Positions 32,101 to 64,000 of a stretch of 64,000 nucleotides of DNA are shown here, piece by piece. Under the pieces are notes generated by a model. The model saw only the letters and a list, made by a program, of their open reading frames with translations. It was not told the DNA's origin and did not search any database. The translations under genes were made by a program, and so were the position numbers. This DNA is from Siphonodentalium dalli. Its lineage: Eukaryota; Mollusca; Scaphopoda; Gadilida; Siphonodentaliidae. Location: positions 91,657,319 to 91,721,318 of the forward strand of contig CP136066.1 in the NCBI GenBank assembly GCA_032622095.1, read 5' to 3'. Each line of letters begins with the position of its first letter. The stretch's first letter is position 1.

Positions 32101-35100
32101 GCTAAGATATTGGGATGGCGATGCTGGTGTTTAGTCCAAGACCGCTTGTATACCAATCCTATCACACGAGTTACGCCCACGATCTGTGGCGGGAATTTGT
32201 GGTGTATTTTACTCGATTTACCTAGCAAATCAATACATGATGCTATATACATCGGAAAGGCTTACATCTTATGGTCATAATGGTGTATAATAATCTAACT
32301 TTAATGTTAAATTACACATAGAATATTCCGGTTGATTGCCATAAACATCGATTTGTTTCTCTGTTTGTTTACGTTTTAACCGAAAGCCGAAGTGGTCCGA
32401 ATAAGTTTGGCATAATCCGCTGTTTGTTCTGGGAATTCTACTTTCCGTTTCTATATATAGCGCGGGTTTTCCGAACAAAAATGGCGAAAACCGATCGCCC
32501 GAAAGTCCAGTTTTCTATGTGCTTTCAGAACAATTCCCGCACTAAAAACTTAATGACATAATGGAGGATCAGAACGGTAGTTTTGTTGACAATTTTCGCA
32601 AGCAACTTGTCAAAATTGGAGCAAATTAGAACTCTTGTGTCTGACTTGCCATGCGTGTGATTTTCATCCATGTGCATTTTGACTTTTGTGTTGATAAAAT
32701 AATCGGAGAACCGAATCACACAGTTTCGAAATATAGTTCTTCCGTTTTAGTGGGACTTTTCAAACTTAAGGTTAAAAATTTATACAAATTTTGTTTGATT
32801 TTTTGTGTGCTTAACAAGAGCAGTATATTGCTCTGTTCGCTTAGTATATATCTTAATTTCGCCGAAGTCCACCAAATGTGGGAAATGTAGCACCATATTA
32901 TTTATTCTAATACTCGTTGTGTTTACACTGTTTTAAACTTTGAGAGGGTTGTAATTCCCCGTAATTTATTTAATGTATTACATTTATATCTTCAATGTTT
33001 AATTAATCTATTTATTATTTTATTTATTGACACACATAATTACGATTACAATGGAGAATTCTTCGTAATTTGCGTTGTTGTCCAAAATCTACGGAATATT
33101 TTCAACGGAAAATGCCGAACACAGTTCGCGAGGTCAACCGAGTTCGCATACTTTTAAAAAATTGTAAACATTGAGGTAAATGTCTCTTTTCGCATTAAAT
33201 TACCGTTTTAAATTCACAACTGATGTGGGTTTCAGATAAAATAGCATGTCTTCTGCGGAAAATATCCGTTTATTGTCGCAATTGTGATATTTTATTTCAT
33301 AGAATTGTGGTTTTATTTGAGCGGGTCACTAACGCTTAAGCCGTGTCATAAGCGAGCATATAGGGCGGTCTTGGACTAAACACCAGCATCGCCATCCCAA
33401 TATCTTAGCTGGTTTTAGTACAAGAAGACTTGGACTAGGTACACCTATGCAATATCAATGTTTGTATGCAGTGCCCAATGACACACTTACATTAATTAAC
33501 CCTTCAAATTGTTAAAAAATAAAACACAATTATGATTCCTTAACTTTATCTACTTATAATATCATAGACACTCACAACTTGGCTTTAATTATGGACTGAT
33601 TTACTAAATAGTAATAGATATTCAGTTTGTTGATGGACTGAGATTTCCCCTACGGCTACAGGGTTCCATTCCCCCAACCCCTAATATTCTGCTCATGTTG
33701 TTTATGGCATTAATGAAGATTTGTTTAGTTGACATTTACCAGTTAACCCTTCCATGACTGGAGCTTCCTGAAATTTTGCGAAAAACCCTGTGCCAATGCA
33801 TTCTCTTATATATGCGAGTCTCCCATAGGGAGCCTCGCATATATAAGAGAATACATTGGCCTAACAATATTTACCATGACGTTGTAAGCCAGTGCATTAT
33901 CTTATATGCGAGGCCACCTATGGGAGACTCGCATTTAAGAGAATGCACTGGCACAGGATCTTTAATGCAGCACAAGCGCAGCTCCCATCATTAAAGGGTT
34001 AACTATTTGTCTCAACAATAGATTGCATTTATATCCCATAATTTAAATATATTTTCTGATTAACTCTTTTATGCGTTGTTTGCAGGCCTGATGACAAATC
34101 TCCGAGCACGGGTCCCAGATTGGCTCCTGTTAGGGGGAGTGTGCTCTGTTTCCTGCCAGGTTTGTGAATAACATCATCAATCAGTGTTACTTGTTACAGT
34201 CAGTACATTAATATGATGTTACGTGGTTGCTAATATTATTCACAAAATAGTTGCATGATATATACATGTGTATACATGGCAGAGTTATATACATACACAT
34301 TAATATAAAAATGCTTCACTGGTATAGTACAAAACTGGTCTGAAATGTAGAATAGACTCAAGTTTAAGGCAGTATTATTTAGCATAGTATCAGTAATGTG
34401 GTTACATGAAATATCATCATAATGGTAACACTGCTGGGCATTAAACCATATTATCACTAGCATGGTGATAGTGAATTGAATTAAAGTACACAATCCGATT
34501 CGATGGTCCCCAACAACAACATTTCTTGAAATGCCGTTTAGTTATCATAATCGATTAATTGCCAAAAAATAATGCTAATCACTGTCAACTATAGCATAGT
34601 TGCACAAAGAGTGTTATACATCAACATTTTGTTCTACGCAATTTGCAATCGAGAGCGTGTCAAGCCACCAAATATTCGAGGTAGTGAAAAATAACAGGTT
34701 TCAAAATTCAAAATCTGATAACTCTGGACTCTGATGGGTAGGTTCCTCGGCTCATATATATTTTACCCGCGAAGCCGAAGAAATAGTAATTTAGGGGCGT
34801 TAAATTGGATTGTTCATTTAACAACCAATTTCCTTTATTAACACTTCCATGACTGGAGCTTTCTGAAATATCGTGAAAACCCTGTGCCAATGCATTCTCT
34901 TATATATGCGAGTCTCCCATATTTACCTTGACCTTGTAAGCCAGTGCATTCTCTCATATATGCGAGGCTCCATATATGAGACTCGCATATAAAACAGAAT
35001 GGACTGGCACAGGATCTTTAATGCTGAACCAACACATCTCCATCATGAAAGGGTTAAAAGGGACAGTATTTTTGTATCTAATCACTGTCGCTAATGGGGT

Positions 35101-38100
35101 CGTTGTCGTAATGTTTTATTCATAGATGCACACCGTGTGCATTTCTGTATACATAAATGCACACCAGTCTCGCGTAGTGTCACATGACAGGGTCATTGTC
35201 GTAGTGTTTTCTACATAAATGCACACGTGTTGATATTTTTGTAAGTTCATTTCCTTCCGTTCATCAATTAAACAACCATGCAGTTCTTTACGGACCCTGT
35301 TTAATACCGGTACTATAAGATCAATATGTGACCGATGATCAATTTTATTGCAGTTTCGTCATTGTGATAAAAGAATGCCTTTATCAGAACTACGGAAGAA
35401 AATATAGTCTGAATTGAAGCAGACGGCAATTATTTACGGCAACATTTCATTCTCGCGCCGACTGAGACTAGTGTGCATTTATGTATACATAAATGCACAC
35501 CGTGTGCATTTATGTATAAAACGTTATGACAACGACCCCATTAGCATCACTGTCTAGTTGAACTGCGGTGTTATTGACACTTTGTTGTTTTTTATTGCTG
35601 CAGGTCTCGCCGAGATTGAGTCTCTTAGCAGGAAGATGAATGAACGAATGCTGGATCAGAGAAGGTTGAATATTTTTTAAAACCCTTTCACTATTCACTG
35701 TATTCTCCAATTTAGTTAAAAAAGTATACACTAGAATGGTTTATTATGCCACTGAACCCCATAAGCCAAGGGCTCCTTCCATTCGTCCGTCTTGTCAGGG
35801 TGGGTGTCTTTCTGTCCGTCCGAACATATCGTGTAACTTGGGTGATAATTGTGGTGTCCTTTGCCTTGGCGATAGCACATGTTGAGGAAAGGATACCCAC
35901 ATAACTTGGGTTTCATCCATTAATTTTTACCAGATTTACGGCCCTTGTTTGATTTGTGAATATTGTGTCTGTACAAACATTTCAGTTTGTTACTCAGGTG
36001 TTAATAGTTGGCATGGTGATAGCACAATTTGGTGAAAGGATAGCCACATACTACGAGTTTTGTCCAACCAGAGTTACGGGCCTTGTTTGAATTGGAAATT
36101 GGGCAATGATTAAGTTGTGCTTTGGTATGGTCGCGATACATTCCCCGACGATTTGAATAAAAATGTTGCACTTGTGGGGTTTTGGGACCATGCGCACGTA
36201 CCTGAGTGATGGAAATTTTACTTTCTGTGGCCTTAGGCCAAAACAAAAAAGGGTTTTGATTCTTGGGCATAGCCACGTCTGGAAAAAAGGCCCGCGTTGA
36301 AGCATTTTATTACGATTTTCAAATTGACCGATGCTGTCAAATGATAACACGAAAATGGGAAACTAGAAAAGAGAAATTAGTTATGTTTCAAACATCGAAT
36401 ATGATAGACATACAATGGTGTATGTGTTGGTATTCAACAACAGACACTAGGCAACGATAACTACCATGTATATTGTCACCACAAGCTGCCCAAACCCCAA
36501 GTTTATTAATTCAAATGTGTTTCCGTGCTGTAAACAATTATGTGATTTCCAATTTCGGGAACGCAAACCGGAAAGAAATATGGTGCGTATTGGCGATGTG
36601 TATGCTGGTTAATTTAATAGTATTGGAAGTTTTTATGGCTAGCATGTATAGTTACTATAGTATAGATGGATAAATATTAAAGTATATATATAGATATAAA
36701 ATGTATAATCCCGATTTAAACTTTGATTGTTTTAGTTCCGTTTCCGTCTTTGTTGTATTCCGTGTTTTATATACATGTACGCAGTAACAGAGAACGAGAA
36801 TCGAACGGACCTCAAACAAATCTGTCCATGCGTATTCTCTTTAATTAAGTTTAAATTCACCGATGTTACTGAATATATTTGGCGACAAAATTATCCGAGA
36901 ACACCATTTTATAGTGTCCAAATATATTTTTAATCGTTGTATTTTGGCTTGTGGGAAATAAAGCATGATCCATAACCGAAAAATCGTAATTTTATTCCCA
37001 ATGATTCAGTGATTTTAGAAATTAGACTAGAGACACTCAGTAGTCGGTGTCAAGGCCGTTAATTGCGCATAGATCATAGATGTACTAAACTGTGAATACT
37101 ACCGAAAGGGTGTGCCTTTGAATGCAGAAAATCAAGAAACAGGTAACTGAGGTGTGGCAGATGCAAACTAAAATTAAATGCAACAAACAGTCTATGACAT
37201 TTAAATAAAAAATATGAAGTGTTTTCCATGTTACTGACATTGAAAAAAATCTCCCTATTTTTCACTAAATCTCCATATTTCTGAGGACAAATCTCCCTAT
37301 TTCCAATTATGAAAGTAAACAGGTCTGATATAAATAGATATATACTATAAAAAGGTACATACATATATCAAATATACCAACAATATATATATTATGTACG
37401 GGTAGTATAATGTGATAATTGGTCATTCTTTATAGTGGAATACATTAGTTTATATCAAAACAATGTTCTCCTTAGATTTTCTTAACCTGGGAAGGTATAA
37501 TAACCCATGCTAACTATGGGCATTATCCCCATAACAAAAATAAAAAATAAAAATAAAACCCTCGCTCCCTCATCGATTCTCAAAAATAATTGCCCGAGAA
37601 TCAAAACCTTTTTTTTTTTGGCCTTATCTGAATATTTTCCAAGTGAACTTCTCGTGAGCGAGTATAAGCCTTGAAATAATTTAAGAAATTCTCTGTTTTA
37701 CAACTTAACATCATATCAGGCTCAATGCAATTTTAGCCTTTCATTTGATGCCCTGTGTCCGTCAATCATTTAATACACAATAAATAGTCATACTACCTGA
37801 GTGTACTATCATAAATAAAAAAAAATCAATTCATATATTTTCTATCATATTAGTCATGTGTTATTTTGCTCATCCCATATTAACTCATTCAGTCTGATTC
37901 AGTGCCAACTTTTTGTGGGTATCCGATGTCCATGTGCCACGTTTCCTGGCCAGAATTATGCGTTATTGATACACTTTCCATATGATGTTCCACTCCATTC
38001 CCAAAAACGCATCTTACTGACAATGTAATCAGTTCTTGTCATAGGAACAGCCTGTGGCTGGGGTTCTTTATTTGAAAAAGTTGTTCAGTGGAGTGTGTCA

Positions 38101-41100
38101 ATGGGTTACCATAATATAAACATGAGTTATGTATCATGCATGATGTCATATCTTATTCAGGTGATCTTTGTCCTAGTGCAATATTTTGGACATTATTCAT
38201 TGTCTAATGTCAGATGTTTGGCCCCGAATTGTTTACTGCCTGAATTAGATCAAATTTGTAAAACGTTTCGAAAGAACACTTGAAACATCGACTGTTATAG
38301 AATATATACTAGCCAAATATATAGGTATAGTTTGAATTTGGGTTCTGCCCACCAATTTTTACCAGAGTTATGGTCCTTTTTAGCTCAACTTGACAAAGTC
38401 AAGATTGAGCTATTGCCATGGATTTATGTCCGTCATTGGTGCACCCTACAGGCCACATCCCTCATCCGATCATCATCAAACTTCATATAGGTGACCTCTA
38501 GATTTTCCAAAATTCGTTAAAAAACATATCCGCCAGCAGCCATCTTGAATTTCAAATTTGAATCTTGTTGTTTGCTCTTGTTGAATTCTTTTCCACTAAT
38601 TGTCATTCTGCAGGTTAGAGGTTGTGCTGCTGCACTCATCCATCACAATGGAGGAGCAAGCTAAAGCATTCGAACATGTTGGAGACCAGAAAAGAAAGGT
38701 ACGTTTTCACCCTTCGATTGGATTCTCAGCTCTAAAAATAAATGTTGTAATGGTCCGTTTTATATATAAATGTGATGTAATGTCCAGGCTGCCTCCCCCA
38801 TAGAATGGATATAAATAAATAGCCTCCCTCCCTCATCTCAAAATTGAGATTCAATTGTCTGAGATCAGATATTTTATTTTAATGGCCTAAATGTGAGACT
38901 ATTTGTGTACAACATGTTTCATGTCTTTCTTTTCAGGTAATTTTATCAACGAACATTGCTGAAAGCTCCATCACAGTTCCCGATATCAAATATGGTAACT
39001 ATTTTATCTACTGTATTGCCCTAAATAATCTACTCCTTAACCACAGCAGAATTATGGGTAATTTAGTGAGAGCTTTCCGATGAATGGCAACAAGCCATAT
39101 TTCTGACTAAATCCTGAAAAATTACCCATAATTCTGCTGTGTTAAGGAGTCTATTATTTATGGCATTACTGTATATAGTGATTAAGAACTCAAATCTCAT
39201 GTGTTGAAAAAGTGAAGTGAAACACTCCGCTGTGGTGTTCAGATGCACATAGCAAATAAACTTGCTCAAGGCAGGATATTTTCTTAAAAGTTATATCAAA
39301 ATGACAGCATACAACGTCATTCTTTTATATAAATTAATGTCAGTAAAATTATCGTTGGCAAAATCATTCCTGTTTTTTATTGGTGTTTGATTCATGAAGG
39401 TCTAAATATTTACATTTATGCATTGTTCACATTATAAATGGTACATCCGATGTTAAAATTATCAGCTGTAATTGTTGCATGTTACAAAATAGGTAGTTAA
39501 CTTCAGGATAATCTTAACATTTTAATACATATATTAGGCCACACAAAATTTGATAATTTATTTCTCTGACACTTTTGTTTTTAAAATGGACAGGCAGGCA
39601 GGTTTTCATATTTATTTTTTACCTGAAAAATTACCTGGCAGGCAGGCTTTTTCCCCCCACTTTCTACAACCAAAATTTCCCAGCAGTTATGTTTTTATAT
39701 GCCCATTTTAAAAATCGGGACGTAATATGTTAGTCTGGCCATCAATCTGTCCGTCCGTTGGGGAGTCTGTCTGTTCACTTTTGGCTTCAAGATGATAACT
39801 TTAGATAGTCTCAACTGAATGGAATGACATTTTTTATGTGTGTTTACTAGCACAAATACAAAGACATACAGTTTAAGCAAACCAAAAAGTAAACTTCAAT
39901 TTTATCAGATCTAGATAAACTAAAGGGAAATATGAAATACAAGTTGAAATTTGTCTAGCTGAGACTAAGCGGCAGGAAGGATTTATAATTTTTATTTTTA
40001 GTGGCCCATAAAAAGCACCAATCAGGGTATATTTTTATGAGGCAGAAAGTTTCTGTGAAATAGAACATTAACTTTGTTTGTCCTTATTTTGCTCTTTTTT
40101 AGTCGATTAAAAGCTCTTCAATGAAGGTTTGTGTTTTATAATGCATTTACATCTCACTTTAAATGAATTTATATAATATATTTAATATCTTATCTAAATT
40201 ACCAGATATTGCGTACTAGTATGTCTTTTATTTATTCCTCAGTGATCGACTTCTGCCTCACAAAGAATCTTCAATGTGATCCTGATACACATTACACATC
40301 TCTACAATTACAATGGGCTTCTAAGGCTAACTGTAACCAAAGGAAAGGTAGGTTTTTCAGTGTAATTCAAGTTGAATATATGTCGCTGAAACACGCATTC
40401 TGATTGGCCTAGAGCTGCTAACTTTAGTTTACAATTCACCAGCATCGGCCTCTGATCGGAGTACAAATTTTGAATGGAGCATGATGTCATTGACAGTGCT
40501 CGTAAAATATGTCACCGCATTGCCAGTAGTCATGTATTGGAGTGAACTGGAAAGTTATTTACTTTAGTTACAGTTCACAGGAAGTTGTTCTGGTGCTGTT
40601 TGGAGTAACCACAAGGAACATGCCCAGAGATACAGTAATGCTCTAATTAATTGACCTCTTAACCACAGCAGAATTATGGGTAACTTTTCAGGATTTAGTC
40701 GGAAATATGGCTTGTTGCCATTCATCGGAAAGCTCTCTGCGAGCTAGTACGCAATATCTGATAAACACTCTCTGTGAGAGCTTTCCGATGAATGGCAACA
40801 AGTCATATTTCCGACTAAATCCTGAAAAGTTACCCATAATTATGCTGTGGTTAAGAGGTCGATTAATTAGAGCATTACTGTATGATTCCCGAAAAACGTA
40901 TATCTCACTTCATAGCAAGTAATAATAAATAATAGATAAATAGTGCTTTACTTGCAGTTTCTTTTATAATTTTTGGTGGATTGAATTACAATGAAGATAA
41001 GCATACCCTGTTTCATTGGATAATTTAAGCATGTAAAGAATTTGTGAACTCACCGCAGGCTGGCTCGTTCACAAACTGTTTTCGTACTCTAATTCCTGAA

Positions 41101-44100
41101 TATCCAACTCTAATGGTTTCTCTCATTGATTTATAAGCCACCAAAATGGCTGCAAATTTTTGGCTCTGAATATAACGTGCGTATGCACCCGTATGGATCC
41201 CCATTCTCTCAATACTGTTGAAACTAATTGTGATGTTCTTAAAACAGTAGTTGACCTCTGACATGGCTATTGAACTTTGATCCGTGAACATGGAACATGG
41301 ATCTGTCACCCAATTAGGTTTAATATAATGCACAGTGTCTCTGCAACATTCAAGATTAACTCAATTTGAATGTTGATATAATATATGGTGATGGACCATT
41401 CACAGGCCTAACATTTTCAGTCAAATAAAACGTTGAATCTTCAATTTGGATGATTAGTCTAAAGGAAACCGGTTAAGACGTCTAACATCACTTGACATCA
41501 GAATCCCGATCCAATGATAGCTAATGTAGCAGAACATACATCATTTCATTGGTCCATCAACCTTTATTGATTTCTATTATGTGACCAACTGACTTCATTT
41601 GTAATATTTATATTTACAGTGACTGCATCATGGTTAGCTTTATTAAAATTTTGCATTTACTGATTTCTTTATCATACATGCAGGTCGAGCTGGCCGAGTT
41701 TCGGATGGAAGATGTTACCGTATGGTGTCTGAAGAATTCTACAGGAACATCCTGCCAGAATACGGAACCCCAGAAATGCAGGTATATGGCTATTATTTTA
41801 TCTCAATATTGTATCTTTCCAAAGTGATACACCACTAAAAAGCACTGACTCAGGAAACTTTCTGACGTTTCTGTGTTGAGCAAAAATAGGATATTTTCAT
41901 TTCATGCACAATGTCCCTTGGGTTATCTTTAAGAAACATTTACTACCTAAATCTATGGAATTATGAAATTAGTATGGGTTTTGAATTTTAACATTTTTTC
42001 TGTGGAATGTGAAACAGTATATCATAGAGTTTATGAAGTATGTTTATCTTACCAATATGAATATCCAGTATTTGTATCCAGTTGAGAAATTACATGACAT
42101 TATTGTGTTCCATATTATGTACAGTTGCTGGGACAAAAAGCAGCATGTACATAGGTTGTTAAGTTATTTTTGCCTAGATTTATCAGGTGGGTATATGGTG
42201 GTAAAATTTGACTGACTTGCCTGTCTTTTTACATTTCCTCGCATTACTACATAGTACTTAATTAATTTGTTAAGTCATTGGACTCCTCATTTGACACTGA
42301 ATCTGTTTGGTAGCTGTAACTCTGGCAATAGTGAGTCATTCTCCTTTTGAAAGTTTTTCTCATTTTTTTTGCAGAGATGTCCATTGGAGCAGCTCATTTT
42401 AAAGGTCAAGGTCTTGGATCTGGGAGAGCCGAAAGCAATACTGGCTCTGGCACTAGCCCCACCCAATCTGCACAATATTGAGGCCACAATTCTGCTTCTC
42501 AGAGAGGTAATTGAATCAAATTTTCTCACAAAAAAAACAAACGACAGCAGTGATTTAGAGCTGGGCGTTATTTCGGTTTGGTTGCGGTCAATGCAGTGTT
42601 CACGATGGGCCGAGAAATCTTTTGGCCAAATGAAATATTTTTTTTGGCCAAATTAAATTCTCATTTTCTGGGCGCACAATTAATGACTAAAATTGTTCTT
42701 AATTTAAAAGTTTATTTGTTACATGAAATATGTAAACATGAGAATAACACTCTACTTTAGTCATAATAACATAAATCCGCTTAAACAATTACAGTACTCT
42801 ATGTCGCTTTCATGTGCCGTGATCGCCAACTAATGAGCTGTGTTAATTGTCACAGCTAGCTTCACCAAGATAAAACAGAATGTCAGTGTTGCTTATTATA
42901 GTGAGGTAATAACTGTTGAATATCAATTATTGGATTAAAACCTTTACGAGGTGAAGCCAGTTTGTTGTGATTATAAGCCCTAGGTGGGATAAAGTTTATT
43001 CCACCTTACTTAACTGACATGCCATTGAGTAGTGTGGCTCGCTGGTACATCTTTGTACCGCCCAATTATGGGACAATGCATTCTCATATTTTATCATTCA
43101 ATCAACAAAATATGAAATGACCAGTGCACAGATTGAAGCTTTGCTATAGTTTGATATAAGCCTGTAATGGTACAGTATTTCCAAAGGTCGAAAACTGCAT
43201 GTTGAAGACTGGCGAATCAGCAATACTGTTTCCTCACCTAGTTTCGGCATTGTCGATCAATTCAACGCTTTTGAATTAGAATTACGTCTCCATTTGGGGT
43301 AAAAAAAAACTTTGCCCAAATCAAATTTTTACTCTTTGTATGATTAAATCCTTTGGCGCACCCAACAGGCCAACTCACTCATCCCATCATCACCAAACTT
43401 CATATGGATCTTTGGGTGACCTCTAGATGAGAGCCACCTCGGATTTTAATCTTTCTATTAGTATTACTGCATCCTTTGGCACTCCCTACAGCCAAACTTT
43501 TTCTTCCGATTGATTCCAAACGTTTTATACATCTTCAGGGTAAACTCTGGTTACTTAAGCATATAAACTGTCCCGAGTTCCCTATCACTCTATGGACTAA
43601 TATATAGTATGGTCCCATTTCCATGTTGAGCTACATTGTCATTGACACTTTCATTACCAGAGTTACAGCCCTTGTTTAACTTGGGAATTTTTAAATTTTT
43701 GTGCCCTTATAAAATGTTCAGCTTGTAACTTGGGCATGGATCATCAAATTTGGTTGTGCTTTGGTGTGTTGGTAGCCCAGTTTAAGGGGAAATGATTTAG
43801 AAAATAAAACAAAATTTCCATCCATACAAATATTTAGTATTGCCTACTCTCTAGACTGAGCATCGGGGCATATGTTCCCCACTTGGCGTTGCTAATGTTA
43901 TTACTATATGATGTATTTGTGAGTTTTGTTGAAGACCCAAAACCGTAATAATAACTCTGAAGATGGCAAAAGGTCAACTGATGGAAAGAATACAAATTTT
44001 AGTGACGTTGCCAAAGAAAATAGCCATCCTTGTTTTCATCCAAGGCAATAAATTTTACAATTTTATTGAATTTTGCCCTGAGACCAACAGATGCATATAA

Positions 44101-47100
44101 GTATTATATGTGTTTTGGTATTTATCAAGTTATTTTCACCAACATGAATAGCGATAGAACAAAAGTTTGACACCGAGCATGAATGATGATGGATGCAAAG
44201 CCCATGCCAAAATGTTCATCTCCATTTTATAATAATACGTCACATTTGAAAACTTAAAAAAAAAGAAGACTAACACATCCAACATGCGTTCATGGCTTGA
44301 AAAAAAAAAAACTCAAGTCCACTTCTCACTTAACCCGGGTAAGATGGGATATACACATGATTTTTTAGGAATAAAAGTAGAGTCGTCACACTATACCGGT
44401 TAGCACTTGAAACGGCCCGGTATTGTGGTATTACTATATATATTAATCATATGATTTGGTTTCAATAATGATCAGGGGGGGGGGGGGCTCTGTGGCTCAG
44501 TTGGTAAGGTGCTTTGCTCCAGACCCACTCACTCTCTAGCAGTGGCGATATTTGTTCAATTCCCAGTGGAGTCAATCTGACTTTGTATCCCATATCGCTA
44601 TCTGGGTGAGTTGCCAGTTAATACCTGATGCTCTGTGTTTCGCTGTGCACAATGGGTCATTCTGCCAGCCAATGAAATCATTGCTAGATTTACCTTAGTG
44701 CACAGACTTTCCCTCAACCAATAAAATTGTTAACTGTGTGATATTGCCCTGGCTACTGAAAGTGACGTTAAAACACCAGTAAATAAATAAATAAATCAAT
44801 GATTAGTCAATGAAAGTTTTTTTGTTTTTTAAATTTTTTATTTGAACCAGAAAAAACAGCAACATACATAACATGTGTAATACAATTTAAACCTGCAAGT
44901 ATAATATACGTACAACATGATTCAGTAGTATATATGTGGTTTGTACTTCGTTCAGTTCCGCTGAAATCACTGGTTCTTTTTTAAGAGGAAAGAAAAGGGT
45001 ATAGGTATATATAATATATATATAGAAGGATGGTTAATAAGATATAGAATATGAATATAGTTGGGAGAAAATAGCGTCTTTACATGAGTTCATTGAGAAA
45101 AGTAAAATGGTAGTATTTCATGCATAACATCTTAGTCAATGAAAGATGCTGATACGACACCAGAACCGTTCAGTAATTAACCTGATATTGTATATGGAAA
45201 TGAGGCCTGAAAATTACTGACGATGTTCATTCATTTCAGATTGGTGCCTTGTCCACACCTTCAGCAGCTGTGACCAACCGATATGATGGTGACCTGACGT
45301 TTGTCGGTCGTGTCTTGAACTCCCTACCTGTCGATGTACGCATTGGGAAACTACTCGTGCTCGGACATGTTTTTGGATTGTTAGATGAGTGCATCATAAT
45401 AGGTAATAATGTAGGTGTCGCGCTATCGTGGCCTAGATCATGTCATGAATCTTGACTCTGGCTACGCCCGTAGACATCGTCATATACCACCAGACAGGCA
45501 ACTTTATAAGGCCAAATAAAAAAAGGTGTTTGTTTCTCAGAGAATTTTCTTTTCAAAAGTGATGAGGGAGGCAGGTATATGATGTTGATATTATTTATTT
45601 CAAATTTTTCAGATGAGGGAGGCAGGTTTTTGTATATTATAATTTTAATGATACTGTGTAACAAAACACTAATTATTCAAATTTCTGATCCATATAACAT
45701 GGAAAGCCTTAGGTGGTGGACATGTAGCTAAATGATAATAGTTCTGAAATGGGAAAGGATCCAGTCAGTCTGACACTATATTCCATTTGGGAAGGAATTT
45801 ATATATGCAATTAGAAATGATATGGAAGCAGACAAATTTTATTATTTTTTAATTTTTAGGGTCATTATACCCAATGAAAAGTTCAATTTTTTTTATAAAG
45901 AGCATGCACGTTCTTCTAATTTATTCACATGAGGGTCTATAAACCACAGTGCATTGCAGATCATGTTAATAAAATTCATGCCAATGCTCTGGACACTGTC
46001 CTTTTGAAATCCAAGTGTTCTCATTTCATTGAAACATGCAAAGTCTCTCGATAAATCATCTCTTCGCAGTTTGCTGTTGCATGTTGGAAATACGGTACTT
46101 TCCTTCATCATTAGAAGTTCAAAAGCATTTTTTTTTTTTGAATACATGAATTGCCAACATAATTTGTTGTCATCCTTTTTAGCTCAACTTTACTTTGTAA
46201 AGTTTGAGCTATTGCCATGGCTTTGTCGTCCGTCGTCCGTGTGTGCGTGTGTGCGTGTGTGCGTGTGTACGTGTGTACGTAAGGCGTCAACAATAGAGGC
46301 TACAGGTCGTACCTTTGATCGGATCATTATGAAATTTGTCATAGCTGTTGACATCAACATTTGTACCGGAATGATTCATTTTGGGGACATACGGAAAAAA
46401 AACATGGCCGCCAGCGGCCATCTTAGATTTCAAAATTCAATCCATTAGCACGGGCTACAGGCCGTACTGTTTGTCTGATCGTCATGAAATTTGTCATGGA
46501 TGTTAATATTGACATGTAGATGGGAACGAGTAATTTTGGGGTCATTCGGCCAAAAAACATGGCCGCCAGCAGCCATCTTCGATTTTACTCTTTGCATGAC
46601 TAAATCCTTTAGCACGGGCTACAGGTCGTACCTTTAGTCAGACCATCATAAAATTTGTCATGGATGTTAACAATGACATGTAGATGGGAACGAGTCATTT
46701 TTGGGTTATTCGGGCAAAAAACATGGCCGCCAGCAGCCATCTTGGATTTTACTCTTTGTATGACTAAATCCTTTAGCACGGGCTACAGGTCGTACCTTTA
46801 GTCTGATAATCATGAAATTTGTCATGGCTGTTGAAATTGGAATGTAGATGGGAACGAGTCATTTTGGGGTCATTCGGACAAAAAACATGGCCGCCAGTGG
46901 CCATCTTTGTTTTCAAAATTCAATCCATTAGCACGGGCCACAGGTCGCACTGTTCGTCTGATCATCATGAAATTTGTCATGGATGTTAATATTGACATGT
47001 AGATGGGAACGAGTCATTTTGGGGTCATTCGGCCCAAAAACATGGCCGCCAGCAGCCATCTTGGATTTTACTCTTTGTATGACTAAATCCTTTAGCACGG

Positions 47101-49814
47101 GCTACAGGTCGTACCTTTAGTCTGATCATCATAAAATTTGTCATGGATGTTAACAATGACATGTAGATTGGAACGAGTCATTTTGGGGTCATTCGGCCAA
47201 AAAACATGGCCGTCAGCAGCCATCTTGGATTTTACTCTTTGTATGACTAAATCCTTTAGCACGGGCTACAGGTCGTACCTTTAGTCTGATCATCATAAAA
47301 TTTGTCATGGCTGTTGATATTGGAATGTAGATGGGAACGAGTCATTTTGGGGTCATTCGGACAAAAAACATGGCCGCCAGTGGCCATCTTTGTTTTCAAA
47401 ATTCAATCCATTAGCACGGGCCACAGGTCGCACTGTTCGTCTGATCATCATGAAATTTGTCATGGATGTTAATATTGACATGTAGATGGGAACGAGTCAT
47501 TTTGGGGTCATTCGGCCCAAAAACATGGCCGCCAGCAGCCATCTTGGATTTTACTCTTTGTATGACTAAATCCTTTAGCACGGGCTACAGGTCGTACCTT
47601 TAGTCTGATCATCATAAAATTTGTCATGGATGTTAACAATGACATGTAGATTGGAACGAGTCATTTTGGGGTCATTCGGCCAAAAAACATGGCGTCAGCA
47701 GCCATCTTGGATTTTACTCTTTGTATGACTAAATCCTTTAGCACGGGCTACAGGTCGTACCTTTAGTCTGATCATCATAAAATTTGTCAAGAATGTTAAT
47801 AATCACATGTAGATGGGAACGAGTCATTTTGGGGTCATTCGGCCAAAAAACATGGCCGTCAGCAGCCATCTTGGATTTTACTCTTTGTATGACTAAATCC
47901 TTTAGCACGGGCTACAGGTCGTACCTTTAGTCTGATCATCATAAAATTTGTCATGGCTGTTGATATTGGAATGTAGATGGGAACGAGTCATTTTGGGGTC
48001 ATTCGGGCAAAAAACATGGCCGCCAGTGGCCATCTTGGATTTCAACATTTAATCCATTAGCACGGGCCACAGGTCGTACTGATTGTCTGATCATCATGAA
48101 ATTTGTCATGGATGATAATATTGACATGTAGATGGGAACGAGTAATTTTGGGGTCATTCGGCCAAAAAACATGGTCGCCAGCAGCCATCTTGGATTTTAC
48201 TCTTCGTATGACTAAATCCTTTAGCACGGGCTACAGGTCGTACCTTTATTCTGATCGTCATAAAATTTGTCATGGATGTTAACGATGACATGTAGATGGG
48301 AACGACTCATTTTGGGGTCATTCGGCTGAAAACATGGCCGCCAGCAGCCATCTTGGATTTTACTCTTTGTATGACTAAATTCTTTAGCACGGGCTACATG
48401 TCGTACCTTTAGTCTGATCATCATAAAATTTGTCATGAATGTTAATAATGACATGTAGATGGGAACGAGTCATTTTGGGGTCAATCGGCCAAAAAACATG
48501 GCCGCCAGCAGCCATCTTGGATTTTACTCTTTGTATGACTAAATTCTTTAGCATGGGCTACAGGTCGTACCTTTAGTCTGATCGTCATAAAATTTGTCAT
48601 TGATGTTAACGATGACATGTAGATGGGAACGACTCATTTTGGGGTCATTCGGCCGAAAACATGGCTGCCAGCAGCCATCTTGGATTTTACTTTTCTCTTC
48701 ATGTCTATAAACTAGTATTAGACATTCAACTTTCCACATTCCTAATCGCTCCATTGACTGTAATATATTAAATTATTCCCTTTCCAAGTTGAGCTACAGT
48801 GTCATTGACACTTTCATTTATAATTATTTTGATTTGTATTTATCGACCGAACATCTGAACGTTGATGCAACATCAGAGGCATATTTAACTGTTCATCAAC
48901 ACAATCAAAGTCCGATGTTTTCAAGTTTGAAACGCGAACTTGAAACAGTGTGAAAAGTGATTTCAGAATTGTTCGCCTGAGTTTCCTCTCGGTATTCAGT
49001 AAGAATTATCAGTTTCTTTTCGTCAATAACCTTCTCCCAAAGGAATTGAAAAGAATGTGTATTAGGGCATGATATAACTGTCCATGGTACAAGGTGTTGA
49101 AGAGGTGCTCCCAGCTTCTTTCCAAACACGGCAATATTTAAGAGCGTGGCCATTTTTCATACAGGAAACAATGAGGTGTGCTCGATCTCGCAACCCGCAA
49201 TCCGGTCAGTTGTACTTTTACCACCAAAGAGGCATAACTCTATATACCTACATTGCTTTCATCCTGCCAATCTCAACGGTGAAAATTGGGAAGGCGCGGT
49301 AGGGTAGTAAGCTTATTATCAGCCGGCGATAAAAAGTGCCAATGCGCACAGTTTTTTAAGACGCGGAGGTCCTTGAGAAACGTAGTTCCTTTTTTATTTG
49401 GCCTAATATTAAGAAAATATTAACCTTGGTAATATATTTATAAGTTGATACCTGTTCATCAATAATGTATTTCACAACAGGCTTTTGTAAGCTGACTTCT
49501 TTTTGAGTCGCTTACAATCATAAGATTTCCCACATAATCAATTCATGTCTATTGTGAATTTGGCTCACAAAAGTTGCCTAAATCATGTAATCTTGATTAG
49601 GTACCAATACATACTGTGAAATGCATTATTAAGAAACAGATATCAACTAAACATTAGGCCAAAAAAAAAGAAGAGTTTTGTTTCACGGGCAATTTTTTTT
49701 CAAAACGATGAGGGAGGGAGGGTTTTATTTTTATTTTTATGTTTACCCATACCATAGTATGGTAAACATAGTGTCGTTGTCCGGATTGACCACTCGTCGT
49801 TAGTCCGTCCGTCC

Positions 49815-49856
<42 letters not shown>

Positions 49857-52800
49857 AGACACTTTACGCATGGTGCGATAACTGAAATATTTTCTATCTG
49901 ATCGCAACCAAATTTGGTATGTGAGTTTCTCAGCCCAAAATACAGATCGAGTTCGAATATGGGTTTGATCCGAGTTTTTTTTATGGAGTTATGGCCCTTT
50001 TTCGACTTGGAATTCATGCATGCTACCATAACTCAAAAAAAAATTATCTGATCAGAATCAAATTTGGTATGCGAGTTTCTCGGACCAAAATACAGATCGA
50101 GTTCGAATATGGGTTTGATCCGATATTTTTTAATGGAGTTATGGCCCTTTGACATAGAATTTATGCATGTTTCGATAAATCTACAATTTTTCAACTGATA
50201 GGAACCAAATTTTGTATGTGAGTTTCTGAACTCAAAATACAGATCGAGTTCGAATATGGGTTTGATCCGGTACTTTTTAATGGAGTTATGGTCTTTTGAT
50301 ATTTTATTAATCGCTAAAACATATCAAAGATACCCAGTTTGCACTGTCCAAATAGAATCTAATAAATCAGGTTTGATGTTGTCTTCTGACACAGAGACAG
50401 TATCTGGTTACAATGCCATGAAGTTGTCTCTGTCTTGCATTGAGATAATTAACTACTAGGAGATGTGTTGGCCATATGTTATATACTTTATACTCTATAA
50501 AGTATATCTGGCCATATGATGAGATATCATAGATGGGATCATTGGGATGTTTATACTATTATATTTATATGCATGGTTATTTAAATTCCATCTTAAAGGC
50601 ATAATCTGGTTTCATTGTTTAATAGCATTACTATTGGAGATTAATAATGTGATTGTGTTGAGTAGATTTAAGCTATCTGTTGTTTATTTCATTTCCATAG
50701 TGTGTTGACAGTGTCAGACTTCTCAGGATTTATCAACTCCAACATACTAGTAGCTCCCTGGTCTTGCATGGATTTTGGGATTAAATTAACCCATTCCATA
50801 CACACATGATATCTGATAGGCAGATATTAAATTATATCTTTCACTTTGAGCCATGTTCAGTAAGGATTTCTTAAAACATTAGAGGAATTGTCTTATTTTG
50901 AAATTCCATCTATTGCATTCGGGGTGCAGGATAATAATAATGTTGCTTGTATTCTTGAGACTGACTTATTGTGTGGGCTTCTAAATCCATATACATGCAT
51001 TTATAGACTATTTTGATCAGTTTATTAGTGTGATTAAGATCAACCCTTGCTATCTCATTTAATAACTCAAATATTTGTCATTGATTATATTATATTTCAA
51101 GTCATAGTTTATGATAACACACCCCTAACCTGTATAGAGAGGGTCATTTGGTTTAATTGCTTTAAAATATTAACAAAATTAACCCACCCATTCCATAGAC
51201 ATACAGTATGCTATCCAATGTAATGAATTTAATATCTTCAATCTCATATCCCACCTCTAGTTATCTCATAATTATGCATTAAAGTTCAATGTATGTTATA
51301 TCCAATCATTATCAATCATATTTTACTCAATTTTTTTAATATCTTTAACTATTATGTTTGGTTCTTCTGTCTGACTATGGACTGAGCTCTATGGACTGAG
51401 CTCTATATATCTATTTTAAACTGACTTAATAGGTTGGAATCAAATGCCATATCCATGTTCATATGGAAGGTGCCCAATAAGTCTTATGCCACTTGTGAAC
51501 TTAAAGGTACTCAATCCGATTTGGTCCCCATATCATCAGATTCCAAAAACAATTCCGCTTCAGTTATCAGAATCGATTAATTGCCCAAAAATAATGCTAA
51601 CCACAGTCCACTATAGTATAAAATTGCCCAAAACCTGTTATTTATCAACATTTTGTACATTGAAATTATGTTGCTTTGTCATATATCTGACCAAAAAAAG
51701 CCACTTGATTTTAGAGTTATCCATCTTCATCGACTTTCATACGGCCACTAAATATTCCAGGTGGTTAAAGATAATGGATTTAAAAAATTGATATCTGCTT
51801 ACTCTGAATTTGATGAATGGGTTCCTCGATTTGAATAAAATATTTGTTACCCCCGAAGCCAAATAAATAGTAACTGAGGGGTGCTTAATCGGATCGAGTA
51901 GCTTTAATAGTAAGGTGTGAATTGTTGAAAAGGTTGGTGTAAGGATTTATGAAAATAGCTAATCGTTATCGCCAAGGTATGGGTTAAACATCTGCCGATC
52001 GTGATCGGCCTCTCGTTTATTTTCCACAAGCCATATACCTCATACTGGAAAACTTACAAAACTAACAAACAGGCTAGCTATTGACTGTTGGGGGTAATTA
52101 AGAAAGGTTTTATGAATTGCTGGCTTTGTCAAATTGTGCAGCACAGATGCAGTTTGTTCCACAGCAAATTATTTCTTCATGTTTAATACATTTTCTGTGC
52201 AAAAGTGCATCTTTGTTGCACAATACAATTTAATATTTGTCTCAAAAGCCAACCCAATAACCAATTATATCCTCACCCCCCAGGAAACAAACGTCACCTT
52301 ATAATCCCTGCATTAATTTTGAAGAAGGTTATAAAGTTTCCCATCAGAAGTTCAATGGTTCGAACATGTTCCCTTTGGCATAGCCAGAGTAATGAATCAT
52401 GGCATGATCTTCGGTGGCCAAATTTGTCAGGCCTAAAAAATATTTGACAACTTTCAGGGGCATAATAGTAATGGCAAAAAATATTTGTTATTTACTAAAA
52501 GAATATTTTGACCACGTGCCAACCCATGTTCAAATTAAAATTTTAAATGCACCTTTTGTCATTGAATATTCAGCTCATATATTATTGAAACTAAACTTAT
52601 TATATTATTTTTCAACAGTTTTATCTGTGTTTTAATCACTGTCCTTCTTGACGAATAAAAATGTCCTCATAATAAACAGCGTCGTCAGTCAACTATATCT
52701 GTAAGAAGAATTTCCATCAGCAAAGAGATCAAGTTGACTGAAAAAATTTACATTAAATAAGGGGTATTTGGAAGCCTGACAATGTCTAATAAAAAATCTC

Positions 52801-55800
52801 AAAACACCTCTGTCATGAACATGATTGATTGGCTTGGACAACATGGTGGCAAATTGTATTGAGTTTTAACAGAGTAATTTCAAATTGGATTTTCAAACTT
52901 GCATATACCAGCCTAATATTATACACAAAGTCTGAAAAATAGATGAATTAATAAGAATACTGGCTTTTTCACCTCAAAATATATTTAAATGACTATAAAT
53001 AACAACCTTAGGCCAAAATTAAAAAATTGTTGTGGTTCATGTTTCCCTACCGACCCTATTTTAAACTCATGGCTTGTTTCTTGTGTTTGTTTTTTTACAC
53101 TTGTTACAGTGTATACAAAGAAAAAATGATCTATCTTACAGAAGACATGAAAAGCCAATAAGAATATGTCAAAATAAAAAACATTTTAGGCACAAAAAAA
53201 AGGGTTTTGATTCTCGGGCATAGCATAGCCGCGTCTGGAAAAAAGGCCCGTGTTGAACCATTTTATTACGATTTTCAAATGATAACACGAAAATAGGAAA
53301 CAAGAAAAGAGAAATTAGTTATGTTTCAAACATCGAATATGATAGACATACAATGGTGTATGTGTTGGTATTCAAAAACAGACACTAGGCAACGATAACT
53401 ACCAGGTATATTGTCACCACAAGCTGCCCAAACCCCAAGTTTATTAAGTCAAATGCGTTTGTTGTTGTTGTTGTTGGCATCATAATCATATGTAGCTGAT
53501 TTCCGCGAGGTAAACAATTATGATATTTCCAATTTCGGGAACGCAAACCGGAAAGAAATATGGTGCGTATTGGCAATGTGTATGCTGGTTTAGTATAATA
53601 GTTTTTATGGCTAGCATGTATAGTAACTATAAATGGATAAATATTAAAGTATATAGATAGATATAAAATTTATAATCCCGATTTAAACTTTTTGTTTGTT
53701 TTAGTTCCGTTTCCGTCTTTGTGGTATTCAGTGTTTTATATATACGCAGTAACAGAACGCGAACGGACCTCAAATAATTCTGTCCATGCATATTCTCTTT
53801 AAATTCACCGATGTTACTGAATATATTTGGCTACAAAAGTATTCAAGAGCACCATTTTATAGTGTGCAAATATATATTTAATCGTTGTATTTTGGCTTGT
53901 TGGAAATAAAGCGTGATCCATAACCGAAAAATCGTAATTTTATTCCCAATGATTCAGTGATTTTAGAAATTAGAGACACTCGGTAGTCGGTGTCAAGGCC
54001 GTTAATTGTGCATAGATGTACTAAACTGTGAATACTATCGAAAGGGTGTGCCTTTGAATGCAGAAAATCAAGAAACAGGTAACTGAGGTGTGGCAGATGC
54101 AAACCAAATGCAACAAACAGTTGCAATTATGAAAGTAAACAGGTCTGATATAAATAGATATATACTATAAAAAGGTACATGCATATATCAAATATATCAA
54201 CAATGGTTCAGTAAATTGAAATATACATTGTACTAGTATATATATATCATTCTGGTAAATCCCTACCTGATGTACGGATAGTACAATGTCATATATTTAT
54301 GTCATTCTTTATTTCAGATTTGATGTACGGGTAGTATAATATGATAATTGGTCATTCTTTATAGTGGAATACATTAGTTTATATCAAAACAATGTTCTCC
54401 TTAGATTTTCTTAACCTGGGAAGGTATAATAACCCATGCTAACTATGGGCATTATCCCCATAATAAAAATAAAACCCTCGCTCCCTCATCGATTCTCAAA
54501 AAAAATTGCCTGAGAATCAAAACAATTTTTTTTTTTGGCCTTAATAAAATAAAATTTTAAACATTGTACTACCTTGTACATTGTACTTGGCCTTATCACT
54601 TATCACCTGAGAAAATGTTTTATATTTGGCCTAATATTTTCTCTTCAATTAATTTCTAATAGGAGCTGGATTGTCACAGAAATGTATCTTCACGAGACCT
54701 CTGAAGAAACCGTTGGAAGCTTATGGGTAAGTTCAGCAATCAGAATGGAGAAACCGTTGGAAGCTTACAGGTAAGTTCAGAAATCAGAATGGAGAAACCG
54801 TTGGAAGCTTACGGATAAGTTCAGCAATCAGAATGGAGAAACCGTTGGAAGCTTACGGATAAGTTCAGCAATCAGAATGGAGAAACCATTGGAGGCTTAC
54901 GGATAAGTTCAGCAATCAGAATGGAGAAACTGTTGGAAGCTTACGGGTAAGTTTAGCAATCAGAACAGGCTTGTCAAAGTACCGCCGGTACCAAGGTAGT
55001 CGGTACCAGTACCGGTACTGTGTTGGAACCGCGGTACCGGTACCGGTACTGGTGTTGCATTGTTTATTCCACTACATATCACACATTTAAAAGAGTATAT
55101 TCTAATGTGGTCATTACTGGTATTGTATGGCACTTTGTGCCAGTTTTTGGTGATTGTTGTGGATGACAAATACAACCATGTCAGACTATCCTAATGCACG
55201 TATGCCACAGTAGCCACACATAAATGTGTGACATACATGCATTAGTATAGTCTGAAATAGTTGGATTTATCACCCACAACAATCACCTAAAATGTGCCAT
55301 AATTTAGGCAGCCTGATAGGTGTTAGAACTTTTATGTTTAGGGCTTCAGGCGCTCAAATACATACATCGGAAAGATGGGTATATATGTGGTGAATGACAA
55401 TTTAAACTGAAATAAGTTTTATGTACCTGCAAGGCTGCAATACTCTTATGTAAGTTATAATGTAACACACTGTTCCACTTACAAGCACAACTGACTAGAC
55501 TGATGCAATAATTTGTTGACGGGTCACAGGTCACGTGACAGGTCACAGGTGCCGACATCAAATTAATCAAACTCAAAGGAAATACAGAGTGTTCCAGACT
55601 TCCGTGCATGGGCGGTTGGATTGCATTGATCCGCCGGGCGGATCAATGCAATCCCGCCCACGCACGGCTGTCCGGCTGTTCCCTATGATGTCGGCATCTG
55701 CCACCGCGTGCTTGATCCGTTGACACAATCATAGTAGCATACCATAATGCAAGCGGCAGTTGCGGCACACTTAAAAGAGCAAAGTTCCTTCAATTTTAAT

Positions 55801-58800
55801 CGATCTATACTGATATATTTACTGTTTTTGGCGAGTACAGAGAACCGTCGGTACTGAGTATCAGAACCGGTACCGTTGAAACGGCCAAGTACCGCCGGTA
55901 CCGGTACTGGTACCGGTTGACAAGCCTGAATCAGAATGGAGAAACTTTGTTGTGTCCAGAAAGTCCCAACAGAATGCCCATCATATAAAGTTGATAAATT
56001 GTTTGATTTCACATTGTGATTGATGCGGACGAAGATGAAGATATGGTTGTATTAGTTTATCAGTCTCTCTGTCCATCTAGCCATCTGTCCGTCGGTTAAC
56101 ATTTTTGGTTTCCGACTCCAGTTTGGATTATTTTATCAGAACAAAAGTTGATATGTGTGTTTCTGAACCTAAACTACAGGCCAGGTTCGAACATGGGTTT
56201 CATCCAATTATTTTTACATGAGTTACGGCTAGAGCTGAAACGGTTGACCCATTCTTCTAACCGGTTAACCATCGGGGTTAACCGGATTTCAACCGGTTAA
56301 CCGCTAAATTTCTAGCGGATTTCTCTCACACTAATTATGTCGACATTATGCCATGCTCCAGGGACAAACCTATAGGTGAAAAGTAGTAGCTGAAATAAAG
56401 ACCTTATTCACGGCATTTAACGATATTCAAAAACACGCATTCACTGTTCTTTTGCTGGCTCTCGTGATGGGGAATGAGCAAGTGAAATTTGTGAATGGCA
56501 GGAGAGATCGCTTATTTGCCGTGATCAGCATATGTTTGGGCATTTGTAAAACGAGTAAAATAGTATGGGTATTGGTAAAACGAGTAACAAAACTATATAT
56601 TAAAGATCTGTAATATATCATTATCATCATTGGTATATCCTCCAATGCATTATATATAAAGACAAGAAAGTAATAACTAGAGAACAAAAAGGAAGGTCAG
56701 TTAGGTCAGACTCGCAGTCCTATTCAGTATTCGAGCTATTCGTCGGTATCATGATAGCGGACACTAGTGTTGGGAGGTTATATAATTTACGTTTCGGTTT
56801 TGGTTTCAGTTTTAGTATGCAATCACTTAACATATAGCAATTACTGCCAAATTGAGTGTTAATTAGTCCCACAGGCACAACCAGTTACAGAGTAGCATGG
56901 AGCATCAATTTCCTTGATAAAAGGGAAGATTATTGAAGAAGTTTTGAGTTGCTTCAACTACGATGTCTGTTTGGTCACTCAATTGAATTGATCATATTAA
57001 ATCACAACAGGGAGGAAGAACGGGAAGAGTGAAGACATTGTGCAGCTGATCTCAATCTTCAAACTTTGTCGACTTACATAGTTTTTAGCTCACCTGAGAC
57101 GAAGTCTCCGGTGGAGCTATAGTCATCACTCCTCGTCCGTCGTCCGTCCGTCCGTCAACAATCATCTTCTCGTCCCGAACCGTAAGACTTAACGTGTTCA
57201 TATTTGGTGTGGATGTTCCCTAGGTGAATCACATTCAGATTTGTTCAAATGTGGTCACTGGGTGGAATAGTTGTGAAAGCAGGGCCATAACTCTATTCCT
57301 CCATAGTAATTCTTAGAACGACTTCTTTTACTGAACTATAAGGCCGTATGGATTCATATTTGGTGTGGATGTTCCCTAGTTGACTCACATTCAGATTTGT
57401 TAAAATGAGGTCACCAGGTTGATTAGTTGAGAAACCAGGGCCATAACTCTTCCTCCATAGTAATTCTTAGAATGACTTCTTCTTTTGAACCATTTGACCG
57501 ATTTAGCTTACATTTGGTATGGAGAGTCCTTGTGTGACTGTGGTTCAGATTTGTTCAAATGGGGTCACTGGGTCAAATAGGGGCAGAGCCAAGGCCCAGG
57601 GACATAACTCTTAAAAAAAAGTTAATTCAAATCCTTGTTTTAAACCCTTGCCCCCCCTCCACCCCACCTCCCCCACCAATGCATGTCCCTGCCACCCCAC
57701 ACCAGAGATCCCTGCAAGGTTCACCCCATTAAAAGCCTTACACTTTAGTTATGACATGCCAGGAACGGGTTGGTCTCACTTTGCAGACATGCGGCAGGGG
57801 ATTAACTCAAGGTGCGACCGACTGTGTTGTTACAACGCTGGCAATTAGGCCGATCCAAGTTAAGTGTGGTGTAACTTGTGTCCAGGCCCCAGGCCAACTT
57901 GTCAAAGCTAAGGCTAGGTAACTGTTGTCACTTGTATTTCGCGCATATGTAAGTTACACTAACTAATGTTCATCGTGAATATTTAGTGTTGTGTCCAGGC
58001 CACATTAAACGTCTTTATACTGTTGACACTTGTAAGTTACATTTGATTTGATTGATTTATTGCTCCACCAATAACACATGGTATATGACAAGGTACATAA
58101 TATGAATGTAACATACATTAGTCAACAATATATATACATATATACAAAGATGAATTTTACCGAACTGGCTAAGTGGCACTGGGTATAAAATGCAATGAAT
58201 AATTTCAGTGCGGTAGTATTTTCCTTTTTTTTTTACAATGAAACGGGATTTACATAACAAAACGGAAGTACTAGCTCTTTCCATTATGTTCTGTACCTCC
58301 AGCTTCACTGCTTCCTTCGTGTGAGATTACTATTTTATCCGTTTGAATGCAAGTTTGAGAAATATGCAAAGTCGTTTTAGTATTGACACGTTACATATAG
58401 TTAGTAAATCGTGGAATTTCTCTCTAACGGGATATTTCCAATAAGATTGTGGAATGTATTTCTCTCTGAGTTCTTTAATTATGTCACATTCTAAAACAAA
58501 ATGGAATTCATCCATCTTCATGTTTAATATTATCTTACAAAACTTGAGATGAATCTTTTCAAGACAGTCAACATTTTCGAAACCCCATATCTCACTTCCA
58601 TAGAGGATGATAGGTAAAACTGTACGATCAAACAATTTAAGTGACAAGTCAATAGCCAGATTAAGTTTATATTTTTTGTTTAAGAGTCCGTACATAGCCC
58701 TTGTTGCAACCGTGCACGTTTTCTTCACTGCTTGACAAAAACGTCCATTATGAAAAAATAAAACACCAAGGTACTGAAACTCAAAAATCAATTTCTTTGT

Positions 58801-63831: not shown

Positions 63832-64000
63832 TATTTACATCCACTTTGTTTTCTATAGTATCTTGCCATTGGTTTTCATAAAGCTTATACATTTGTTTAA
63901 ATAGGATTATTACATTAGGGTGCATATTAAAAGCACAGATGGCCTTCTCAGTGGGTATTGCTGTTAAAATAAACACATCCATTAACGCTGTCCTAAACAG

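Follow-up and report, generated by a model that had tools for sequence, protein, structure and literature searches.

A minisatellite of six 44-bp units repeats an exon end and its splice donor in a TDRD9/Spindle-E-like gene of Siphonodentalium dalli

The gene and its exons

The window analysed here (the whole stretch of 64,000 nt, S. dalli contig CP136066.1, positions 91,657,319 to 91,721,318, numbered below from its first base) carries a TDRD9/Spindle-E-like gene on its + strand. Exons were searched by tblastn with a stretch of the mouse TDRD9 helicase, and their edges were read and checked for phase; one missing exon was the best of 15 candidates listed, picked by its likeness to the TDRD9 sequence. 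The resulting model places 15 exons at 22841-63604, and the placed coding part of the gene is intact (1,590 nt, 530 aa, 0 stops):

22841-23062, 27305-27427, 27787-27867, 28919-29077, 31909-32009, + strand: upstream exons 1-5
34086-34159, 35604-35664, 38614-38698, 38937-38994, 40243-40347, + strand: upstream exons 6-10
41684-41781, 42375-42506, 45240-45402, + strand: upstream exons 11-13
54663-54726, + strand: exon M, 64 nt, encoding (G)AGLSQKCIFTRPLKKPLEAYG, with acceptor TAG at 54660-54662; placed by tblastn, phase and the Spindle-E alignment
63541-63604, + strand: exon N, the next exon after M, with acceptor TTTTACAG; in frame from donor 1, the donor of exon M (LEAYG/QRREWADD)

Exon M is the 14th of the 15 placed exons, counted from the Walker A exon, with which the placement starts. 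Pfam matches above the cut-off were found for DEAD, Helicase_C and HA2_C in the gene product. Its top match among solved structures is Spindle-E (9nhs_G, E = 5.5e-155), the next protein being DHX29 (E = 8.6e-86); the query is aligned to residues 146-673 of the 1,443 residues of Spindle-E, and the alignment runs without a gap over the 54726/63541 junction. Spindle-E is termed the ortholog of mouse Tdrd9 (PMC11094040). A first-pass annotation of this DNA, made from the sequence alone, had named the gene TDRD9, and a DExH helicase core that is nearest to Spindle-E among solved structures bears out a TDRD9-like identity. The last placed exon reaches residue 673 of 1,443, and the C-terminal Tudor part would fall past the window end at 64000. 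The exon at 35604-35664, which closes the helicase frame between 34159 and 38614, has a weak-looking donor (AAG/GTTGAA). The intron preceding exon M holds a satellite of about 164 bp (about 15 copies at 46298-48691, also with 319- and 483-bp periods).

The 44-bp array and the inserted element

The 3' end of exon M and the start of the following intron are repeated head-to-tail on the + strand. Tandem Repeats Finder reports a 44-bp minisatellite at 54705-54965 (period 44, 5.9 copies, 94% matches, 0% indels, score 452), in which each unit joins 22 exonic bases from the end of the exon to 22 intronic bases from the start of the intron. The array matches itself at a lag of 44 in 204 of 217 positions; after dinucleotide shuffling (20 sequences of 10 kb), the best 217-base stretch had 90 matches over all lags from 40 to 48. 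The sixfold array of an exon end with its donor, as first described, is thus real; the copying of the exon end also holds, but the length given for it, about 20 coding bases per unit, has to be corrected to 22. The array had also been described as ending at 54965. That position is instead the insertion point of a transposon, past which the remainder of unit 6 is found at 55929-55939:

54705, 54749, 54793, 54837, 54881, 54925, + strand: starts of the six minisatellite units, head-to-tail
54966-55928, no strand assigned: hAT-like nonautonomous DNA transposon, 963 bp, inserted in unit 6
54966-54977 and 55917-55928: perfect 12-bp terminal inverted repeats (TIRs) of the element, CAGGCTTGTCAA (12/12)
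54958-54965 and 55929-55936: left and right copies of its perfect 8-bp target-site duplication (TSD), AATCAGAA
55937-55945, + strand: TGG, the displaced end of unit 6, followed by the AGAAAC of the 3' microhomology, which is in register with 54705-54710 if the element is left out

Unit 6 ends in TGG, three bases that are shifted to 55937-55939; AGAAAC comes next, and then the sequence diverges. Without the element, the distance from the AGAAAC at 54705 to this one would be exactly six periods. An 8-bp TSD together with short TIRs is a hallmark of hAT elements, and the 8-bp TSD and the short TIRs starting with CAG are like those of hAT nonautonomous transposons. Three of its four overlapping ORFs of at least 70 aa gave no Pfam transposase match, none of their Pfam matches being better than E = 0.12. 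The element is called only hAT-like because no transposase of its own was seen in these three of the four ORFs. Two further inverted repeats lie inside it, at 55144-55292 and at 55594-55675, and no second copy of the 963-bp element was seen within the 64-kb window.

Outside the array, the unit matches the rest of the window by chance stretches of 9-12 bases only, the displaced end at 55929-55946 excepted. The 15 placed exons have 30 boundaries. Only one of these, the exon M donor, is nearly copied (42/44) within 1 kb; the remaining 29 are not duplicated, their best matches over this distance being 20-24/44. A search of viral contigs with the array unit gave 0 exact matches, a protein scan gave four pattern stretches, none of them a relative, and Rfam gave 0 matches.

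Donor strength and the products of decoy use

The donor states previously listed, GT at 54727, 54771 and 54947 and AT at 54815, 54859 and 54903, are confirmed by reading the sequence: units 1, 2 and 6 carry the donor hexamer GTAAGT, and units 3, 4 and 5 carry ATAAGT. Donors were scored with a position matrix and, in addition, by the duplex energy with the 5' end of U1:

54727-54732, + strand: donor 1 (authentic), TGG/GTAAGT, score 8.96, U1 duplex -10.3 kcal/mol
54771-54776, + strand: donor 2 (decoy), CAG/GTAAGT, score 12.69, U1 duplex -12.6 kcal/mol
54815-54820, + strand: unit 3 donor, inactivated, CGG/ATAAGT, score 0.63, U1 duplex -5.5 kcal/mol
54859-54864, + strand: unit 4 donor, inactivated, CGG/ATAAGT, score 0.63, U1 duplex -5.5 kcal/mol
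54903-54908, + strand: unit 5 donor, inactivated, CGG/ATAAGT, score 0.63, U1 duplex -5.5 kcal/mol
54947-54952, + strand: donor 6 (decoy), CGG/GTAAGT, score 11.37, U1 duplex -11.9 kcal/mol
54728-54730, + strand: in-frame TAA stop, reached by any transcript using donor 2 or 6

The 14 donors of the gene that were scored range from 3.24 to 10.12, and both decoys exceed all of them. The + strand has 3,763 GT sites. A score of 8.96 or more is reached by 21 of them, one of 11.37 or more by 4, and one of 12.69 or more by donor 2 alone. By these scores the working donor 1 looks good, and decoys 2 and 6 look better on paper, a ranking that the first-pass annotation had overlooked. We also considered masking of donors by RNA structure and rejected it: the RNA of the exon plus array folds in an ordinary way (z = -1.11; 16 of 100 shuffled sequences were equally stable or more so), and there is no clear difference in accessibility between the decoys and donor 1. 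In an 80-base window, the probability that the donor 9-mer is unpaired is 0.004-0.009 for the live array donors vs. 0-0.23 for the 14 other donors of the gene, four of which are lower; the array donors are thus poorly accessible yet not outside the range of the others.

The frame check and the Spindle-E alignment agree that donor 1 joins 63541 in frame, as had been proposed. The frame check likewise upholds the claim that reading past donor 1 gives GGG TAA, an immediate stop for the downstream donors: both donor 2 (+44 nt) and donor 6 (+220 nt) yield LEAYG followed by the stop. This stop had been placed shortly behind the beginning of the helicase-associated part, which does not hold. Its position, about residue 499, is within the HA2_C match (455-514 of a 520-aa query). 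As judged from the Spindle-E alignment, a product ending at LEAYG would lack more than half of the protein. Under the usual rule, an mRNA with such a premature stop is expected to undergo nonsense-mediated decay. We therefore picture unit 1 as what probably remains the working exon end, with functional mRNA made from donor 1, and donors 2 and 6 as decoys whose use would end translation at once and probably lead to nonsense-mediated decay.

Growth of the array and its likely effect on splicing

The six units differ at eight variable positions, seven of which are transitions, and their mean pairwise difference is 6.7%. The G-to-A change at the donor, found in units 3-5, is the sole difference common to several units, and units 3 and 4 are identical. 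Because units 3-5 share this change and units 3 and 4 are identical, the array appears to have grown partly after it, as the first-pass annotation had argued. It is most simply explained by a single loss of the donor that was then copied into units 3-5. The AGAAAC direct repeat flanks the array in register and thus suggests microhomology-mediated duplication, of which a 6-bp direct repeat at both unit ends would be the expected trace. Moreover, the five inner junctions hold the TGG that now lies past the element, from which we infer that the first duplication predates the transposon. A likely course of events would be as follows. A 44-bp segment flanked by AGAAAC and containing the exon end with its donor may have been duplicated through slippage or microhomology-mediated repair; the units would then have multiplied and accumulated the eight substitutions; a single G-to-A change would have killed the donor of one unit, the copying of which gave units 3-5; and the hAT-like element would have entered the last unit at some time after the first duplication. 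Selection against decoys was considered as a cause of the GT loss and was rejected. The chance that at least one of nine events strikes a GT is 34%, and one donor-killing event was observed among the eight substitutions; a single such hit is unsurprising, chance suffices to explain it, and there is thus no case for selection.

Arrays of this kind are known from other genomes, and in lancelets, where they are called "mirages", they have been suggested to be general. In these mirages, exon-intron boundaries of Adh3, globins, TnC and PGBD5 are duplicated in tandem in the manner of a minisatellite (PMC3087553, PMC3902484). They resemble the present array in that a boundary is duplicated, the donor side in BflGb9 and the acceptor side in BflGb6 (PMC3087553, PMC3902484). 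Adh3 units are 10-72 bp long, many of them with splice signals, and neighbouring units of BflGb6 are homogenised (PMC3087553, PMC3902484). Similarly, the units described here span an exon-intron boundary and bear duplicated splice signals (GTAAGT in units 1, 2 and 6), whereas the 44-bp unit on the donor side, the TDRD9/Spindle-E-like gene and the transposon in the last unit set this array apart from the lancelet cases. The lancelet mirages are reported or suggested to leave regular splicing undisturbed, reportedly without giving rise to aberrant mRNAs (PMC3087553, PMC3902484).

A human counterpart, the VNTR in intron 18 of ABCA7, has a 25-bp unit that contains the exon 18 donor (PMC5954066). 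As in the present case, the array includes the exon's own donor, and use of the donor in the next unit leads to unit retention and a premature stop (PMC5954066). The ABCA7 array starts at the donor GT, is polymorphic at about 12 to 427 units, and its length affects exon 19 skipping (PMC5954066), whereas in the present case the copied unit extends over 22 exonic bases as well, and there are six units only. Retention of one unit through the next donor accounts for 2 ± 1% of ABCA7 transcripts, independent of array size (PMC5954066). This value represents the level after decay, because stop-bearing isoforms rose substantially when translation was blocked with cycloheximide (PMC5954066). Skipping of exon 19 is more frequent with longer arrays, which are also linked to lower expression, and the alternative transcripts together exceed the canonical one in 90% of BA10 brain samples (PMC5954066). 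The isoform rise and the length effects indicate that such arrays are not always silent. The ABCA7 precedent favours a small use of the next donor and speaks against a general harmlessness of such arrays.

The array is of a known kind and was read correctly in the first-pass annotation. It is probably best explained as a mirage-type minisatellite in which functional mRNA is made from donor 1 and which is itself close to neutral. A neutral array is favoured because lancelet mirages are reported to leave splicing undisturbed and because retention of one ABCA7 unit is only 2 ± 1%. By this comparison, the most likely picture would be that of a mirage that is close to neutral, in which donor 1 is used with some unproductive leakage, a cost to splicing being possible since the decoys outscore donor 1.

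This leakage could be large because, besides the higher decoy scores, data from a human library suggest dominance of the stronger donor where two donors are unequal (PMC6783452). Under a leaky, mildly harmful competition, U1 would bind the perfect unit 2 donor, a substantial share of the transcripts would end at LEAYG and be degraded, and the TDRD9 dose would depend on the array haplotype. The rank of the unit 2 donor (first of the 3,763 GT sites, with that of unit 6 in the top four) points in this direction, as do the nearly identical 22 nt of upstream exon context that every decoy shares with donor 1 and the increase of stop-bearing ABCA7 isoforms under blocked translation (PMC5954066). Nevertheless, we consider such competition rather unlikely, because the duplicated splice sites of lancelet mirages reportedly give rise to no aberrant mRNAs (PMC3087553, PMC3902484), single-unit retention in ABCA7 is just 2 ± 1% at steady state (PMC5954066), and the placed coding part of the gene is intact. 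In the same human library, the first of two consensus donors is predominantly used (PMC6783452), and competing-donor reporter work (PMC1877881) contains nothing decisive for this case. The further proposition that this is a piRNA-pathway helicase with a natural donor-competition array, in which haplotypes set the TDRD9 dose and hence transposon control via unproductive splicing, appears improbable to us.

It had also been suggested that the locus could tune functional TDRD9 by donor choice, or else could be neutral and polymorphic. Tuning is possible but unsupported, and from the comparisons above a neutral, possibly polymorphic array seems to fit better. In particular, it is very improbable that selection keeps the decoys as a regulated switch that shuts off TDRD9 by unproductive splicing in some tissues or stages. 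A perfect GTAAGT is kept in two decoys, the use of which would result in an early stop; however, the retention of GTAAGT needs no selection because the divergence of the array is low (6.7%), and half of the six donors are dead.

A tandem duplication is also a proposed route of intron gain, as in the AGGT duplication model and its examples; the nearest cases are the Rogers model, potato RdRp and 24-bp AGGT arrays in fission yeast (PMC4974935). The present array is like these cases in that a sequence bearing a splice signal is tandemly duplicated inside a gene (PMC4974935), and unlike them in that no new intron is evident, the protein being aligned without a gap over the old junction. Donor 1 and the TTACAG of unit 2 (54765-54770) do delimit a 44-nt GT-AG segment that starts with GTAAGT, ends with ACAG and has a new donor directly after it, but intron birth or recursive splicing, for which the AGGT model and its examples would be the precedent (PMC4974935), is hardly credible here, as the segment is very short, has no pyrimidine tract ahead of the AG, and the AG at that position is found in unit 2 only. 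The product of recursive splicing would equal that of normal splicing and would thus be invisible in mature mRNA.

The near-neutral mirage favoured above is a clear example of a minisatellite at an exon boundary, here within a gene for transposon control in the germline. Its history is readable from the 6-bp flanking microhomology, the one donor-killing mutation that appears to have been copied later, and the transposon in the last unit. Because the decoys outscore the working site, the array is a natural test of the choice between duplicated donors, for which a first-donor rule and a strongest-donor rule give different predictions. If the use of decoys is small, this would support the view that cells tolerate such arrays.

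Other repeats occur in the window. The segment at 56064-56229 has matches of about 74-78% to the tandem repeats at 26457-26965 and at 49895-50291, and the tandem arrays tied to these two regions have periods of 169 and 147 bp. A reverse transcriptase fragment on the - strand at 2422-2742 (Pfam RVT_1, E = 9.4e-14) is by inference a LINE remnant. Furthermore, two short tandem arrays at 23114-23160 and 62353-62400, 39 kb apart, share a near-identical unit of 19-20 bp (TGGCAAAAATAATTCACATT-like).
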